Positions 3,779 through 16,850 of a stretch of 64,000 nt of DNA are shown here, piece by piece. Each line of letters opens with the position of its first letter. The stretch's first letter is position 1. A model generated the notes under the pieces. The model did no database searches. It was not told the origin of the DNA and was given only the letters and a program-made list of their open reading frames with translations. The translations under genes and the position numbers were made by a program. Source of the DNA: Paenibacillus pedocola (GTDB lineage: Bacteria; Bacillota; Bacilli; Paenibacillales; Paenibacillaceae); assembly GCF_031599675.1 (NCBI RefSeq), contig NZ_CP134223.1, positions 930,001 through 994,000 on the forward strand, in the 5' to 3' direction.

Positions 3779-3830
3779 CATCTCAGGGAATGAGGGAAGC
3801 CGGGGAAACCTGGCTTCTTTTATTTTGGAC

Positions 3831-4060
3831 GAGGACAATATGGTGAAATTAAAGGTAGAAGTGCTTTTGATTTCAGCACATGTGGCCAATATGGTGGAAT
3901 AAGAAGCTTAAGTGTTTTTGAATTTGCTATACGAGGACAATATGGTGAAATCAGAAGCAGAAGTACCTTTGATTTCAGCGCACGCAGGCAATCTGGTCAA
4001 ATGAAGTGTAAAAGTACTTTTGAATCTGGCGTATGCGGTCAGATGGCGACCGAGCGCTGA
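3831..4060 (+). repeat. 51-bp tandem array B (about 4.4 degenerate units)
   Basis: Related motifs GAGGACAATATGGTGAAAT, GTGGCCAATATGGTGGAAT and variants start at 3831, 3882, 3933, 3984 and 4035, again exactly 51 bases apart. Aligned in phase, the unit resembles array A (GG-GAAAT-A-AGG and CTTTTGATTT match the last unit of A), and both arrays have the same orientation. The hairpin of array A is eroded here. Bases 3779-3830 upstream hold only a short GGCTTC/GAAGCC-type hairpin-like stretch and 4061-4172 downstream show nothing recognisable. Confidence 0.85.
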
Positions 4061-11428: not shown

Positions 11429-11460
11429 AGAGTGATTTAGTGTAACCAAATATGCTGTAG

Positions 11461-11488
11461 AAAGGGTGTCCGAGAGGGCGCCCTTTTT
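11461..11488 (+). terminator. terminator of the nucleoside/adenine operon
   Basis: AAAGGGTG pairs with CGCCCTTT over a short loop and is followed by TTTTT, 33 bases after the adenine deaminase stop codon. Confidence 0.8.
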
Positions 11489-11540
11489 AATACGGGGATT
11501 TACGAGTTCTTATCCTATGGATGTGAATGTATGGATATGA

Positions 11541-11745
11541 ATTCTTGGAGTGATTGTACTTTCTGCAATAGAATGCTCAATATTGGGCTGAAAATCGCAT
11601 TCTGCTGTATTTCGTGCAATGGAAAATCAAGATTTGGAGGTAAAGAGGCTTCTTTGCTCAATTCTGCTGTACAGAGTGCAGTAGTTTCAGTTTTCCGGTA
11701 ACGAAAGGGTTCATCTGCTGCAGAAAATGCAATAGAATGCACTAT
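11541..11745. repeat. four-unit intergenic repeat, copy 1 (51/62/51 spacing)
   Basis: Four imperfect units share a TGCA core followed by A/G-rich bases (TGCAATAGAA, TGCAATGGAA, TGCAGTAGTT, TGCAATAGAA) and mostly a CTGCTG stretch just before. The TGCA cores start at 11564, 11615, 11677 and 11728, so the spacings are 51, 62 and 51 bases. A second copy with identical spacings lies at 16641-16850. An open frame on the minus strand across this block has no ribosome binding site and reflects the repeat. The rest of the gap up to 11793 holds nothing else I recognise. Confidence 0.75.
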
Positions 11746-11809
11746 CACCGGTCATTTGTGATGGATTTTTCTCGTCCAAAATGGACGTAATGCAGGGAGG
11801 GGACGAGCT

Positions 11810-11950
11810 ATGACAGATAAAGCGATGCAGCGCCAGTTAAAGCATTCAGCAGATGAACGGGATCATTCATGCAGCAGCTACATCATACAGGCGAAGCTTT
11901 TCGCTTTTACGATTGACTTGCGTATGACACGACCCTATGATGATAAATAA
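11810..11950 (+). CDS. candidate small protein, 46 residues, function unknown
   Basis: ATG 11810 is preceded by GGGAGGGG at 11795-11802 with suitable spacing, and the frame runs 46 codons to TAA. The product begins MTDKAMQRQLKHSADERDH and shows no signal peptide, membrane segment or motif I know. It lies 45 bases before the CYTH phosphatase gene and could be a leader gene for it. Support is only the ribosome binding site and position; it may not be a real gene. Confidence 0.35.
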   Translation: MTDKAMQRQLKHSADERDHSCSSYIIQAKLFAFTIDLRMTRPYDDK

Positions 11951-11995
11951 TATAAAAATATAAGCGGACCGTACGAAGAGGAGAGAGCGAGCAGC

Positions 11996-12490
11996 ATGGG
12001 GATGGAGATTGAACGCAAGTTTCTGCTGCCGGAATATCCGGAGCAGCTGATTGAGGGAGGACAGCTCAAAGTGCTTACCCGGCACAGTATTGACCAGACG
12101 TATCTGGCGATTGAGGACGGGCAGGAGCTGCGGGTGCGCAAAATAACCGATCTGGATTCCGGTGAGGTTACCTTCACACACACCTTCAAGGATGGCAAGG
12201 GCATCAGCCGGAAGGAGGTCGAATACGACATCTCCGAAGGTTTATATAACCAGATGATTGAGGCCGTGAAGGCCGTGCCTCTGGTCAAAACCCGCACTAC
12301 TGCCGTATGGAACGGCACCACGGTCGAAATCGATGTCTACACTCAGCTTGAGCTTACGGTGATCGAGGTTGAATTTGATTCGCTGGAGGAAGCGGAGGGC
12401 TTCACCGCCCCTGAATGGTTCGGCGAGGATGTCAGCGTAGCGAAGCAGTACAGCAACAAAACCGTCTGGAAGCAGCTTCAGCATAAGTGA
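11996..12490 (+). CDS. CYTH domain phosphatase (triphosphate tunnel metalloenzyme)
   Basis: The N terminus MEIERKFLL carries the ExExK signature of CYTH proteins, which bind triphosphate groups inside a beta tunnel. Further charged strands are visible in ELRVRKITD, VTFTHTFKDGKGISRKEVEYDIS and TTVEIDVYTQLELTVIEVEF. With 164 residues it has the size of a single-domain bacterial tripolyphosphatase. The start follows GGAGAGAG. Known members hydrolyse inorganic triphosphate or thiamine triphosphate or cyclise ATP; the sequence alone does not decide, and the inorganic triphosphatase role is the commonest for this size. Confidence 0.85.
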   Translation: MGMEIERKFLLPEYPEQLIEGGQLKVLTRHSIDQTYLAIEDGQELRVRKITDLDSGEVTFTHTFKDGKGISRKEVEYDISEGLYNQMIEAVKAVPLVKTRTTAVWNGTTVEIDVYTQLELTVIEVEFDSLEEAEGFTAPEWFGEDVSVAKQYSNKTVWKQLQHK

Positions 12491-12570
12491 GGCACGGCAG
12501 CCGTATTTTTTTCACCAAAGTTGACACGGAAGTAACGGACTTTAACGCTTAAACGTGTTAATATGTAAGA

Positions 12571-12609
12571 TGAACTTAAGAATGAATTCAGTTTACATTC
12601 TTAAGTTCA
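12571..12609. promoter_or_regulatory. perfect 14-bp inverted repeat before threonine synthase
   Basis: TGAACTTAAGAATG at 12571-12584 is exactly complementary to CATTCTTAAGTTCA at 12596-12609, with an 11-base loop. There is no T-tract after it, so a terminator is unlikely; it may be an operator or an RNA structure in the leader about 70 bases before the ATG. Confidence 0.5.
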
Positions 12610-12677
12610 CATTCTATATATGGTATTCACGTTCTACACAGGGTAAATAAAGAGGGGTTCAGGAGGATGAGACAGGT

Positions 12678-14066
12678 ATGGAGTATATAAGCACAAGAGG
12701 AAATGTGGAAGCTAGAGGCTTTATTGATACAGTTCTGATGGGGCTGGCGGATGACGGCGGGCTGATGGTTCCGGTGCAGATCCCGGTAATTTCCCCGGAC
12801 ACGCTGGAGGAATGGCGGAAGCTTAGCTTCCAGGAGCTGTTTCTGGAGATTTTCTCCCATTATACTAACGATGAAATTCCTTACGATGATCTCAAAGAAA
12901 TGGTGTACACCAGCTACGGCAATTTCCGTGCGCCGGAGGTGACACCTCTTCATAAAGTGAATGATTCCTTATACGTGCTTGAGCTGTTCCATGGACCTAC
13001 GTTCGCGTTCAAGGATGTGGCGCTGCAGTTTATGGGCGAGCTGTATTCCTACATTGCCAAGGTGCGGGGCGAGATTATCCATATTCTCGGGGCGACCTCA
13101 GGTGATACCGGTGCGGCGGCGATTCAGGGCGTACGCGGCAAAGCAGGCATCAAGATCTGTATCCTGCATCCGCATAATAAGGTGAGCAAGGTACAGGAGC
13201 TGCAAATGACGACTGTGGATGACAGCAATGTGCTGAATCTGTCCGTCGAAGGCAACTTCGATGATTGCCAGAAGGTGATCAAGGAGCTGTTCGCGGATCT
13301 GGACTTCAAAGGCAAATATCACCTGCGGGCGATCAACTCGATCAACTTCGTGCGTATTCTGGCCCAGACGGTTTATTATTTCTATGCTTACCTGCAAATC
13401 GAGAACAGCGGTGGAAAGAAGATCAATATCAGCGTGCCTTCGGGCAACTTCGGCAATATTTTCTCCGGCTTCCTGGCCAAAAAGATGGGGCTGCCGATCA
13501 ACAAGCTGATCATTGCCACGAATGAAAATAATATCCTCGAACGCTTCGTGCTGACCGGTGAATACAAACCAGGCGGCTTTACGAGCACATACAGCCCTTC
13601 GATGGATATCCAGGTGGCGAGTAATTTTGAGCGCTATCTGTATTATTTGCTGGACGAGAATGCGGTCAAGCTCTCGGAGTATATGGCGGGGCTTGCGGCA
13701 GAGGGCAAAATTACGGTGGATGGCGAGCTGTTCACTCAGGTGCAGGCTGATTTTGCCGCGCTTGGCGTGAAGAACGAGCAGTGCCTCGAAACAATCAGCA
13801 AATATGAGCAGGAATACAGCTATCTGCTTGATCCGCATACAGCCTGCGGGATCGCGGCATATGAGGCTTTTGGCGGACCGGATGAAGTGACGGTTACTTT
13901 TGCTACGGCGCACCCTGCGAAGTTCGATGAAGCGATTGCCCTGACCGGGATCAAGCAGGAGTTCCCGGCGCCAATTTCCGCATTGTTCGAGATGCCGCAG
14001 CATATGACGGTTGTGGAGCATGACAAGGCGGCGATTGTGCGCGAGCTGCAGGCTTTTTACGGATAA
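12678..14066 (+). CDS. thrC: threonine synthase
   Basis: PLP enzyme converting O-phosphohomoserine to threonine, last step of the pathway. The motif HGPTFAFKDVALQF contains the PLP lysine K112; LGATSGDTGAAAI, SVPSGNFGNIFSG and the late DPHTACGIAAY are further marks of this group. With 462 residues it belongs to the long (E. coli/yeast-like) class, not the short class of B. subtilis ThrC. The start is supported by AGGAGG 15-20 bases upstream, with an alternative binding site overlapping GAGACAGG. It stands alone, not with hom or thrB, and is followed by its own terminator. Confidence 0.93.
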   Translation: MEYISTRGNVEARGFIDTVLMGLADDGGLMVPVQIPVISPDTLEEWRKLSFQELFLEIFSHYTNDEIPYDDLKEMVYTSYGNFRAPEVTPLHKVNDSLYVLELFHGPTFAFKDVALQFMGELYSYIAKVRGEIIHILGATSGDTGAAAIQGVRGKAGIKICILHPHNKVSKVQELQMTTVDDSNVLNLSVEGNFDDCQKVIKELFADLDFKGKYHLRAINSINFVRILAQTVYYFYAYLQIENSGGKKINISVPSGNFGNIFSGFLAKKMGLPINKLIIATNENNILERFVLTGEYKPGGFTSTYSPSMDIQVASNFERYLYYLLDENAVKLSEYMAGLAAEGKITVDGELFTQVQADFAALGVKNEQCLETISKYEQEYSYLLDPHTACGIAAYEAFGGPDEVTVTFATAHPAKFDEAIALTGIKQEFPAPISALFEMPQHMTVVEHDKAAIVRELQAFYG

Positions 14067-14125
14067 CTAGCGCCGGGATGTTCACTGCTTGAACCTGCTT
14101 CTGCACCCTATACGAAAGTACACGC

Positions 14126-14163
14126 AAAAGGCCCCGTTTCTCGAGAAGAACGGAGGCCTTTTT
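14126..14163 (+). terminator. terminator of threonine synthase gene
   Basis: AAAAGGCC-CGTT pairs with AACG-AGGCCTTTTT around a short loop, with A residues on the left and T residues on the right, so it could act in both directions. A GC-rich palindrome, CTGCGGGGGGCCCGCAG at 14191-14207, follows; the remaining bases to 14404 show no gene. Confidence 0.85.
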
Positions 14164-14404
14164 GGTCGTATAGCTGGAGTTAGCCTGTAACTGCGGGGGG
14201 CCCGCAGAACATCGTTACTTTTTTCACATAAATAGGCTTGCAGGATTTGTCGTAAATTCTGATTGAAAAGTGGACATACCTATCACGGAATGAGAAAATA
14301 GCAGGTAGAGAGCAGCAAAGAAGCGGAAGCGTGTCCGCGGGAAAAGAAGGAACTTATAATCATCCGGCATCAGTCGTATATTTAAAAAAAGGACGGGATC
14401 ACTC

Positions 14405-15391
14405 ATGACAATTCGTTTCGGGGTCGTAGGCACCAACTGGATTACAGACCGCTTTATTCAAGCCGGGCTGGAGAATGAGGAATTTATTCTGACAGCGGTA
14501 TATTCCCGTACAGAGGAAAAGGGCCTTGCTTTTGCCGCCAAATACGCGGGAGCCGCCATCTATACCAATCTGGAGGATATGGTGTCCAGCGGAGAAGTGG
14601 ATGCCGTGTATATCGCAAGTCCCAATTCGATGCATGCTGAGCAGGCGCTGATCTGCATGAATCACGGCAAACATGTGCTGTGCGAAAAACCGGCTGCCTC
14701 CAACAGCAGCGAGCTGCAGAAGATGATCGAGGCTGCGCGCAGCAATGATGTGCTTCTAATGGAAGCGATGAAATCGACCTTTATGCCGAATTTCGGCGTA
14801 ATTAAAGATAATCTTTATAAGCTGGGCAGGGTACGGCGTTATTTCGCCAGTTATTGTCAGTACTCGTCCAGATACGATGCGTACCGGCAGGGAACGGTGC
14901 TGAATGCTTTTAACCCGGAATATTCGAACGGCTCACTGATGGATCTGGGGATCTACTGCCTGTATCCGATGGTGGCGCTATTCGGCAAACCGGATTCGGT
15001 AAAGGCTACGGGCATTATGCTCTCTTCCGGGGTGGACGGCGAAGGCAGCATGGTGATGCGCTACCCGCATATGGATGCTGTCGTGATGCATTCCAAGATT
15101 ACCGATTCCTATCTGCCGGCAGAAATTCAGGGGGAGAACGGGACCATGGTGATTGATAAGATCAACCAGCCGTACCAGGTCAAAATCCAATACCGCGACG
15201 GAACGGTGGAGGAGCTCACCCTGCCGCAGGTGTTCGAGCCGATGTACTATGAAGCGTATGAGTTTATTAATCTGCTCAAAAACGGACAACGTGAGAGCAC
15301 TGTCAACAGTCACGCCAATTCCTTGGCGGTAGCAGAGATCATGGAGGAAGCGAGACGGCAGATCGGCCTCCGCTATGCCTCGGATATATAG
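14405..15391 (+). CDS. Gfo/Idh/MocA family oxidoreductase
   Basis: NAD(P)-dependent dehydrogenase of sugars or polyols. The Rossmann start is FGVVGTNWITDRFIQAG, followed by DAVYIASPNSMHAEQA and the family motif GKHVLCEKPAA, whose Lys is part of the active site. The 328 residues are normal. The start lies after AAAGGACGGG. The radical SAM gene begins 18 bases after its stop codon, so the two probably form an operon. Substrate cannot be read from the sequence; a second member of the family is encoded at 53950-54951. Confidence 0.88.
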   Translation: MTIRFGVVGTNWITDRFIQAGLENEEFILTAVYSRTEEKGLAFAAKYAGAAIYTNLEDMVSSGEVDAVYIASPNSMHAEQALICMNHGKHVLCEKPAASNSSELQKMIEAARSNDVLLMEAMKSTFMPNFGVIKDNLYKLGRVRRYFASYCQYSSRYDAYRQGTVLNAFNPEYSNGSLMDLGIYCLYPMVALFGKPDSVKATGIMLSSGVDGEGSMVMRYPHMDAVVMHSKITDSYLPAEIQGENGTMVIDKINQPYQVKIQYRDGTVEELTLPQVFEPMYYEAYEFINLLKNGQRESTVNSHANSLAVAEIMEEARRQIGLRYASDI

Positions 15392-15409
15392 TGAAATGGG
15401 GAGCAGCAC

Positions 15410-16285
15410 TTGAAGACTTTTAAAAAGGTATACATCGAGATTACAAGCGTCTGCAACCTGGCTTGCAGCTTCTGCCCGCCAACCGAGCGGCAGAAGAACT
15501 TCATGAAGCCGGATACCTTCAGCACTATTCTTGATGAGATTAAGCCGCACAGTAATCATATCTATCTTCATGTCAAGGGCGAGCCGCTGCTGCATCCGAA
15601 GATTGGTGAGCTGCTGGACATTGCAGATGCCAAAGGCTTCAAGGTCAATATCACGACCAACGGAACGCTGATCCATAAGGCGGGGCCGAAAATTATCGGC
15701 AAGCCGGCGCTGCGCCAGATGAACTTCTCCCTGCACAGCTTTGACGGGCACGAAGGCTCGGAGAACCGGGAGGGGTATTTGAAGGAGATTATTTCTTTTG
15801 TACAGGAAGCTTCGGCGCAAGGGGTCATCATCTCCTTCCGGCTCTGGAATCTGACGGAGGACAACCAGACCAATCTGACGCGGAGCCGCAACCGAGAGAC
15901 GCTGGCTGTGCTGGAGGAGGCGTTCAATCTGGACTTCAAGATTGAGGAGAAGGTCGTTCCGGGCAGCGGCGTCCGCATTGCGCCGCGTATCTATCTGAAC
16001 CAGGACCACGAGTTCAAATGGCCGGCACTGCATGAGCCGGAGGATGACGGCAAAGGCTTCTGCCACGCGTTGCGCAGCCAGGCGGCGGTGCTGGTGGACG
16101 GCACGGTGGTGCCGTGCTGTCTGGATGGCGAGGGGGTAATCAACCTCGGCAACATCCATGAGCGGCCGTTCTCCGAGATTGTCGAGGGCGAGCGGGCCAA
16201 CAATCTGTTCTACGGCTTCTCCCGCAGGGAAGCTGTAGAAGAGCTGTGCCGCAAGTGCGGGTACCGGCAGCGGTTCGGTACGTAG
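15410..16285 (+). CDS. radical SAM/SPASM-like protein
   Basis: Iron-sulfur enzyme expected to use S-adenosylmethionine for radical chemistry. CNLACSFC near residues 15-22 gives the CxxxCxxC cluster motif; LHVKGEPLLHP and the glycine-rich stretch around NITTNGTLI follow the usual core. The C-terminal third has further Cys residues (GFCHAL, VVPCCLDGEG, ELCRKCGY), consistent with a SPASM or twitch auxiliary cluster. The start is a TTG at 15410 after GGGGAGC; the first internal Met is within the cluster domain, so a shorter protein would not be functional. It is paired with an oxidoreductase gene. No precursor peptide gene is seen nearby, and the substrate is unknown. Confidence 0.85.
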   Translation: MKTFKKVYIEITSVCNLACSFCPPTERQKNFMKPDTFSTILDEIKPHSNHIYLHVKGEPLLHPKIGELLDIADAKGFKVNITTNGTLIHKAGPKIIGKPALRQMNFSLHSFDGHEGSENREGYLKEIISFVQEASAQGVIISFRLWNLTEDNQTNLTRSRNRETLAVLEEAFNLDFKIEEKVVPGSGVRIAPRIYLNQDHEFKWPALHEPEDDGKGFCHALRSQAAVLVDGTVVPCCLDGEGVINLGNIHERPFSEIVEGERANNLFYGFSRREAVEELCRKCGYRQRFGT

Positions 16286-16469
16286 GCAGGAGGCAGATGA
16301 GGTCGCTGTCAGCAGCAAGGGCAGCCGGGTGAACATTCCAGCAGAGCTGCAGCTGGCAGCAGTCACATTCAGTAGCAACCGTAGTTAATAGCGGAAATAG
16401 GTAGAAGAATGAGGTAGCTGATAGTATTCGAAGCCATCTGCAGCCCTGTTTGTAATCGTAAAGCAAACC

Positions 16470-16500
16470 ATAGCAAGCCTCCGCCGGAAGCTTGCTATTT
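16470..16500 (+). terminator. hairpin, probable weak terminator after the radical SAM gene
   Basis: ATAGCAAGC at 16470-16478 is exactly complementary to GCTTGCTAT at 16490-16498. Only three T residues follow, so termination may be weak. The surrounding bases 16286-16469 and 16501-16640 show no gene. Confidence 0.5.
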
Positions 16501-16640
16501 GGCGTATGGTACCTGTAGTTCTCGCGAAAAGACGCATTATCTCAAAATGGCGTAATGAACATTCATAGCTTTGCCCACCCTACCCATCTTATGCTCTAAA
16601 AATCCTGCTATAGCCCCTATAACCGCCCGATGAACGCTAC

Positions 16641-16850
16641 CGGATACGTGTAACTGGATTCCGTACAATTAAATTAAGAATATTTTGCCCTGCTGTACGA
16701 CTAATTGCATTTGCTGCAGTTAAAATTCAACAAAAGCAGGTTTACAGTGGTTTGAGAGAAATATAATTTTAGAAATTGCAACTAAACTACAATTCGGCTA
16801 GGCAACGCCTGATTTAACTGTAGAGAATGCAGTTAAATATTGCTGTACGC
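16641..16850. repeat. four-unit intergenic repeat, copy 2 (51/62/51 spacing)
   Basis: Units with the core TACAATTAAA, TGCAGTTAAA, TGCAACTAAA and TGCAGTTAAA begin at 16664, 16715, 16777 and 16828. The spacings 51, 62 and 51 equal those of copy 1 at 11541-11745, and the two copies align over about 200 bases without gaps at an offset of exactly 5100, although identity is moderate. GCTGTACG occurs near both ends. The rest of the gap to the next gene at 16979 shows nothing further. Confidence 0.75.

Follow-up and report, generated by a model that had tools for sequence, protein, structure and literature searches.

Two four-palindrome elements at the locus

The stretch analysed here, termed the window, comprises 64,000 nucleotides of the Paenibacillus pedocola chromosome and contains two intergenic elements, each composed of four short palindromes that we call cores. 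Copy 1 (11551..11738, + strand) neighbours a gene for a CYTH protein that is 98% identical to its P. ihuae counterpart. Upstream of it, after an adenine deaminase gene, lies a terminator-like hairpin with a T run (11458-11489). Core 1 (11550..11572) is a palindrome with a T-rich centre and a short left arm; core 2 (11601..11623), also with a T-rich centre, follows at a distance of 51 bp. Cores 3 (11663..11685) and 4 (11714..11736), both with A-rich centres, lie 62 bp from core 2 and 51 bp from core 3, respectively. Copy 2 (16651..16838, + strand) repeats these distances of 51, 62 and 51 bp with cores at 16650..16672, 16701..16723, 16763..16785 and 16814..16836, the last of them a perfect match to its pattern. 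Outside the cores, the two copies have little sequence in common. No tRNA was found in the window, and no recombinase gene adjoins either copy.

A sequence-only reading of this DNA had first drawn attention to a four-unit geometry of 51/62/51, and we find it in both copies; the TGCA positions given there correspond to the starts of our 23-nt cores plus 14. The same reading took copies 1 and 2 for diverged versions of one element, a view that we abandon. The outer arms place them in separate families: copy 1 has TTCTRYTGYA (family 1), and copy 2 has TTTARYTGYA, mirrored by TRCARYTAAA (family 2). Both sit in a wider, genus-wide class, and the phenomenon is larger than first noted.

Copy number and distribution

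A 210-base query from copy 1 matched 16 places in the P. pedocola genome, and a covariance model, R1, was constructed from 11 of these. With R1, this genome yields no fewer than 13 full copies (>130 bits) and some 30 places overall, most of them 187-190 nt long; copy 1 is among the 13 with 177.9 bits, and copy 2 scores 31.3 bits. Across 98 sampled Paenibacillus species' genomes, R1 is present in 51 and absent from the remaining 47, with usually about 26 or more matches listed per carrier genome. Weak matches occur in 3 of 24 genomes from other genera of the order. A phage or plasmid origin was rejected, as the phage and plasmid collections searched contained no match to the element. Few R1 places fall between ~1.5 and 4.3 Mb of the P. 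pedocola genome, a possible bias away from the presumed terminus that a second genome (G028) does not clearly show.

No description of such fixed-spacing arrays was found in the Paenibacillus literature searched. The genus goes unmentioned in the main texts of RepRanger (PMC12306157), of a survey of GTAG/CGTC repeats (PMC3733652) and of a stem-loop survey (PMC2267715).

Fixed spacing in three core families

The element spans ~188 bp (about 190) and carries its four palindromes of ~23-27 bp at 51/62/51 bp; the conserved stretch reaches ~9 nt beyond core 1 on the left and ~4 nt beyond core 4 on the right. In profiles compiled from 101 copies, each of the four cores has an identity of its own: the centres are T-rich in cores 1 and 2 and A-rich in cores 3 and 4, and core 1 lacks the outer left arm. 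With T-rich centres in one half and A-rich centres in the other, the element resembles its own reverse complement, and at these places R1 also scores ~50-98 bits on the opposite strand.

Spacing was measured genome-wide by pattern search. At up to two mismatches, the P. pedocola genome contains 94 cores compared with 1 for the reversed pattern, more than chance would give. A free-gap pattern for family 1, built only from one core's right arm and the left arm of the following core with 13-43 nt in between (spacing 36-66), was run on six genomes and gave 45 adjacent-core pairs in P. pedocola and 27-112 in five relatives; the reversed pattern gave none. Among the 75 pairs listed, 52 are spaced at 51, five at 52, two at 50, 12 at 62 and one at 61, with three elsewhere, so that 72 of 75 fall at 50-52 or 61-62 and neither freely varying spacings nor random core distances were seen. 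Because any spacing from 36 to 66 was admitted and 51 and 62 still emerged, these values are not imposed by the method. The 101 quartets, drawn from ten genomes, have gaps within ~2 nt of 51/62/51, the range to which the set had been pre-filtered. Among exact-length family-1 copies, the spacers are on average 52% identical in pairwise comparison (minimum 23%) and the cores 81%; despite this divergence, spacer lengths hold to ~1 bp.

Family-2 members elsewhere show 51/62/51 or 51/62/50. A hand tally of 68 listed pairs from a free-gap search with this family placed ~39 at 51, 13 at 62 and 7 at 50, most pairs overall falling at 50-51 or 61-62. Relative to family 1, its outer-arm changes are compensated, i.e., they occur on both sides. 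A third family (TARRTGG-N7-CCAYYTA) yielded 85 pairs within an allowed range of 41-71, some places having cores in common: 47 at 51, 12 at 52, 25 at 62 and one at 69. Its quartets read 51/62/51 or 52/62/51, and two elements in two genomes read 51/72/51, one helical turn more. In family 1, extra cores or units occur at 51, 52, 61 and 73. The distances observed thus cluster at 50-52, 61-62 and 72-73 bp. Whole helical turns would give just such a step from 62 to 72 in family 3, as well as the family-1 units at 61 and 73. As spacings of 50-53 also occur, the fit to whole turns is good rather than strict. Judging from a common outline, RNTGNA-N5-TNCANY, the three families may share one ancestor, and their agreement does not amount to three independent origins. 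That the geometry is either selected or mechanically fixed is a firm result.

Selection and genomic context

At 18 orthologous pairs from three species, the element has been kept in place. Substitutions per site between orthologous copies amount to 0.059 in cores, 0.111 in spacers and 0.213 in flanks, with corresponding indel values of 0.0012, 0.0062 and 0.0184; since some flanks align poorly, the value for flanks should be read as an upper bound. In one orthologue, a unit of ~52 nt has been added. The earlier suggestion that the distances themselves are under selection gains support here: three core families have 51/62/51 in common, their spacers show near-random similarity, and spacer indels arise at about one-third of the flank frequency.

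Elements occupy convergent and divergent gene gaps at a ratio of 26:9 compared with 18:36 for element-free gaps (p 2e-4, simple ORF calls), and thus avoid divergent promoter regions. In the gene gap that holds copy 1, P. ihuae, P. auburnensis and P. camerounensis have family 2, and P. typhae and two further species have family 3, the upstream gene being checked only where the sequence shown reached that far. Different quartet families per species are seen in the gap preceding the CYTH gene at L130:5445-5631, L131:5638-5824 and L135:5621-5806, where the window has family 1.

Many copies at non-homologous intergenic places, and about half of the species with many copies and half with none, are also what a selfish or passively copied dispersed repeat of the REP/BIME, BOX or MITE kind would produce. 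Here, an enzyme would have spread the element, the geometry would be what this enzyme recognises or builds, and single copies would have no cellular role. Partial copies, gained 51-52-nt units, the prevalence of 51-nt tandem arrays and the depletion between divergent genes, which resembles tolerated insertions, point the same way. On the other hand, a boundary and length scan of 101 copies revealed no target-site duplication, any flank repeat being common to at most 4-6 of them. Searches of 61 genomes found no Y1/RAYT transposase (PF01797) in P. pedocola or in five other element-bearing genomes (G001, G011, G012, G017 and G018). In addition, orthologous places are retained and cores evolve about half as fast as spacers. 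We regard this explanation as possible but doubtful.

Comparison with known systems

RAYT-associated REP/BIME sequences resemble the element as short imperfect palindromes that form intergenic clusters in many copies, with enrichment on the 3' side of genes and a regular configuration. The P. pedocola genome, however, contains no Y1/RAYT gene, the core profiles of the 101 copies lack a GTAG/CGTC foot tag within 4 nt on either side, and the spacing is fixed at 5-6-5 turns and common to families of different core sequence. With PF01797 and the GTAG/CGTC foot both absent, the tested REP hallmarks fail and a RAYT/REP identity was rejected. BOX elements of Streptococcus pneumoniae (PMC3049150) are likewise modular intergenic repeats with variable numbers of internal modules, yet the Paenibacillus element appears to have no distinct end modules, consists of four units of one kind in a dyadic arrangement, and keeps its spacing while losing its sequence. 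Extra units do occur, of the same kind as the rest, and core 1 is without its outer left arm. Bacterial MITEs such as bcr1, RUP and NEMIS (PMC3733652) share the length of 100-200 bp, the dispersal and inverted-repeat-like ends, the last by construction, because the end cores are palindromic and inverted repeats of each other. A parent transposon for such terminal repeats was sought via PF01797 only. In contrast to MITEs, the element lacks a target-site duplication and orthologous copies are retained between species; a MITE identity was rejected on the negative scan of the 101 copies.

Phased protein-binding arrays are known from resolvase res sites, in which several dimer sites lie roughly five turns apart and need to face the same side of the helix. 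The element shares the phased dimer-type sites about five turns apart and differs in having no recombinase gene next to the window copies, dozens of chromosomal copies and four symmetric sites. We know of no named regulator whose sites fit the array.

Tandem arrays with a 51-nt period

Among the long tandem periods seen in 1.49 Mb of Paenibacillus loci, 51 is the most frequent (22 arrays, with three more at 52 and two at 50); as many of these loci were selected for, or lie beside, elements, and a few overlap, array densities do not stand for whole genomes. One 51-nt-type array was present in a random 400 kb of the P. pedocola genome, and none was found in 400 kb of element-negative Paenibacillus or in 200 kb from other genera within the order. 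Most units of period 50-52 hold one palindrome, and these palindromes are of many unrelated sequences. Two arrays lie in the window itself: 5.1 x 51 nt at 1283-1543, with the palindrome AGAGGGA-AAAA-TCCCTCT in each unit, and 3.8 x 51 nt at 3829-4025, with a palindrome of the type CAAAGGTA-GAAG-TACCTTTG. Long arrays of 50-52 nt with unrelated palindromes were seen in P. tengchongensis (L144:4594-5922), P. wynnii (L145:5263-5885), P. tritici (L142:3614-4202), P. paeoniae (L157:4288-4769), P. nanensis (L159:6566-7436) and P. pinisoli (L155:2682-3945), many with an A-rich loop of 4 nt that an A-T pair closes. Outside the order, a 52-nt array with a short palindrome occurs in Lacrimispora (L172:9115-9513). 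Another recurrent tandem repeat, of ~62-68 nt with the motifs AGTTTTG ... CAAAACT and GAAGCAT, was noted at L219:2704-2849, L221:5640-5766, L227:8911-9050, L245:10254-10383 and L012:7872-8029.

The prevalence of period 51 among unrelated palindromes and the gain of a unit between orthologues would fit an amplification process driven by palindromes with an intrinsic step of ~51 nt, through replication slippage or some nuclease, which would also create the 51-52-nt arrays and make the spacing mechanistic instead of selected for binding. Against this improbable explanation, quartets keep the middle 62 and core-specific centres, the spacers within a quartet are not copies of each other, and the cores at orthologous loci are under purifying selection.

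RNA or duplex DNA

At the variable half-site pairs (2, 5 and 6), left and right letters mostly combine as by chance. Ten of 12 covariation tests gave p >0.05, one was weakly positive (p 0.047) and one went against pairing (p 0.003); weak associations toward pairing concern one core-2 pair (p 0.059) and one core-3 pair (p 0.047). Pair 5 is most often C.A in the profiles of cores 2-4, and the elements lie in either direction with respect to adjacent genes, at a near-random 47 to 31. The consensus folds at -19.6 kcal/mol on the + strand versus -5.2 on the - strand. An Rfam 15 search of the window gave no match at gathering thresholds. Kissing interactions between the loops of cores 1/3 and 2/4 were considered and dropped, as inspection of the aligned copies showed no covariation. 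Since the half-sites vary mostly independently, paired RNA helices are unsupported; taken together with the C.A pair and both orientations, this argues for two half-sites recognised in duplex DNA.

The sequence-only reading had left the choice between a protein bound at four places and a folded RNA of four helices to covariance analysis. One weakly positive test of 12 aside, that analysis lends RNA pairing no support, and the protein is much the better fit. A structured RNA whose four hairpins act like a riboswitch, an sRNA or an mRNA-stability element could draw on the palindromic form of every core, the + strand fold and the outer arms compensated between families, but we consider it very unlikely, given that neither Rfam nor the pair tests support paired helices, and that separate hairpins need no single-base precision in spacing. 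Arms that change on both sides between families are as expected for a symmetric dimer with shifted specificity, and a hairpin would do likewise.

A proposed platform for four dimers

The most economical reading, to which we assign a probability of roughly 55%, is that the element acts as a platform of double-stranded DNA on which a putative dimeric, sequence-specific DNA-binding protein sits in four copies. Each core would represent a site of ~27 bp, in which two inverted 11-bp half-sites surround a 5-bp A/T-rich centre. Centre-to-centre distances of 51, 62 and 51 bp would correspond to 5, 6 and 5 helical turns at ~10.3 bp per turn, and whole turns would place all four predicted dimers on one face of the helix. 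The array appears pseudo-dyadic, with T-rich cores 1-2, A-rich cores 3-4 and mirror-symmetric spacing, which suggests one closed complex, formed either by two dimer pairs or by wrapping of the DNA around an oligomer. Such a complex would form at ~30 to 100 intergenic places per chromosome, and a nucleoid- or domain-organising role is more consistent with the data than control of single genes. Several observations weigh against a duplex platform: the + strand folds better than the - strand, one core-2 and one core-3 pair lean weakly toward pairing, and the near-perfect, hairpin-like palindromes with A-rich 4-nt loops in the tandem 51-nt arrays could reflect recognition of structure.

Extending the four-dimer platform to the genus is more tentative. 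A chromosome organiser might conserve DNA geometry, as quartets of dyadic sites separated by 5, 6 and 5 turns or as tandem 5-turn arrays, and the recognised sequence might turn over with a coevolving DNA-binding protein, such that related species would carry arrays differently worded and identically spaced.

Elements that keep their geometry while losing their sequence are rare and open to direct tests, and the clean split of the 98 genomes into carriers and non-carriers offers a practical route to the protein via gene content. If bound as proposed, the elements would point to a DNA-binding complex that spans the chromosome in a large genus of bacteria from soil and plants, one in which specificity shifts at dozens of sites as the architecture stays constant.
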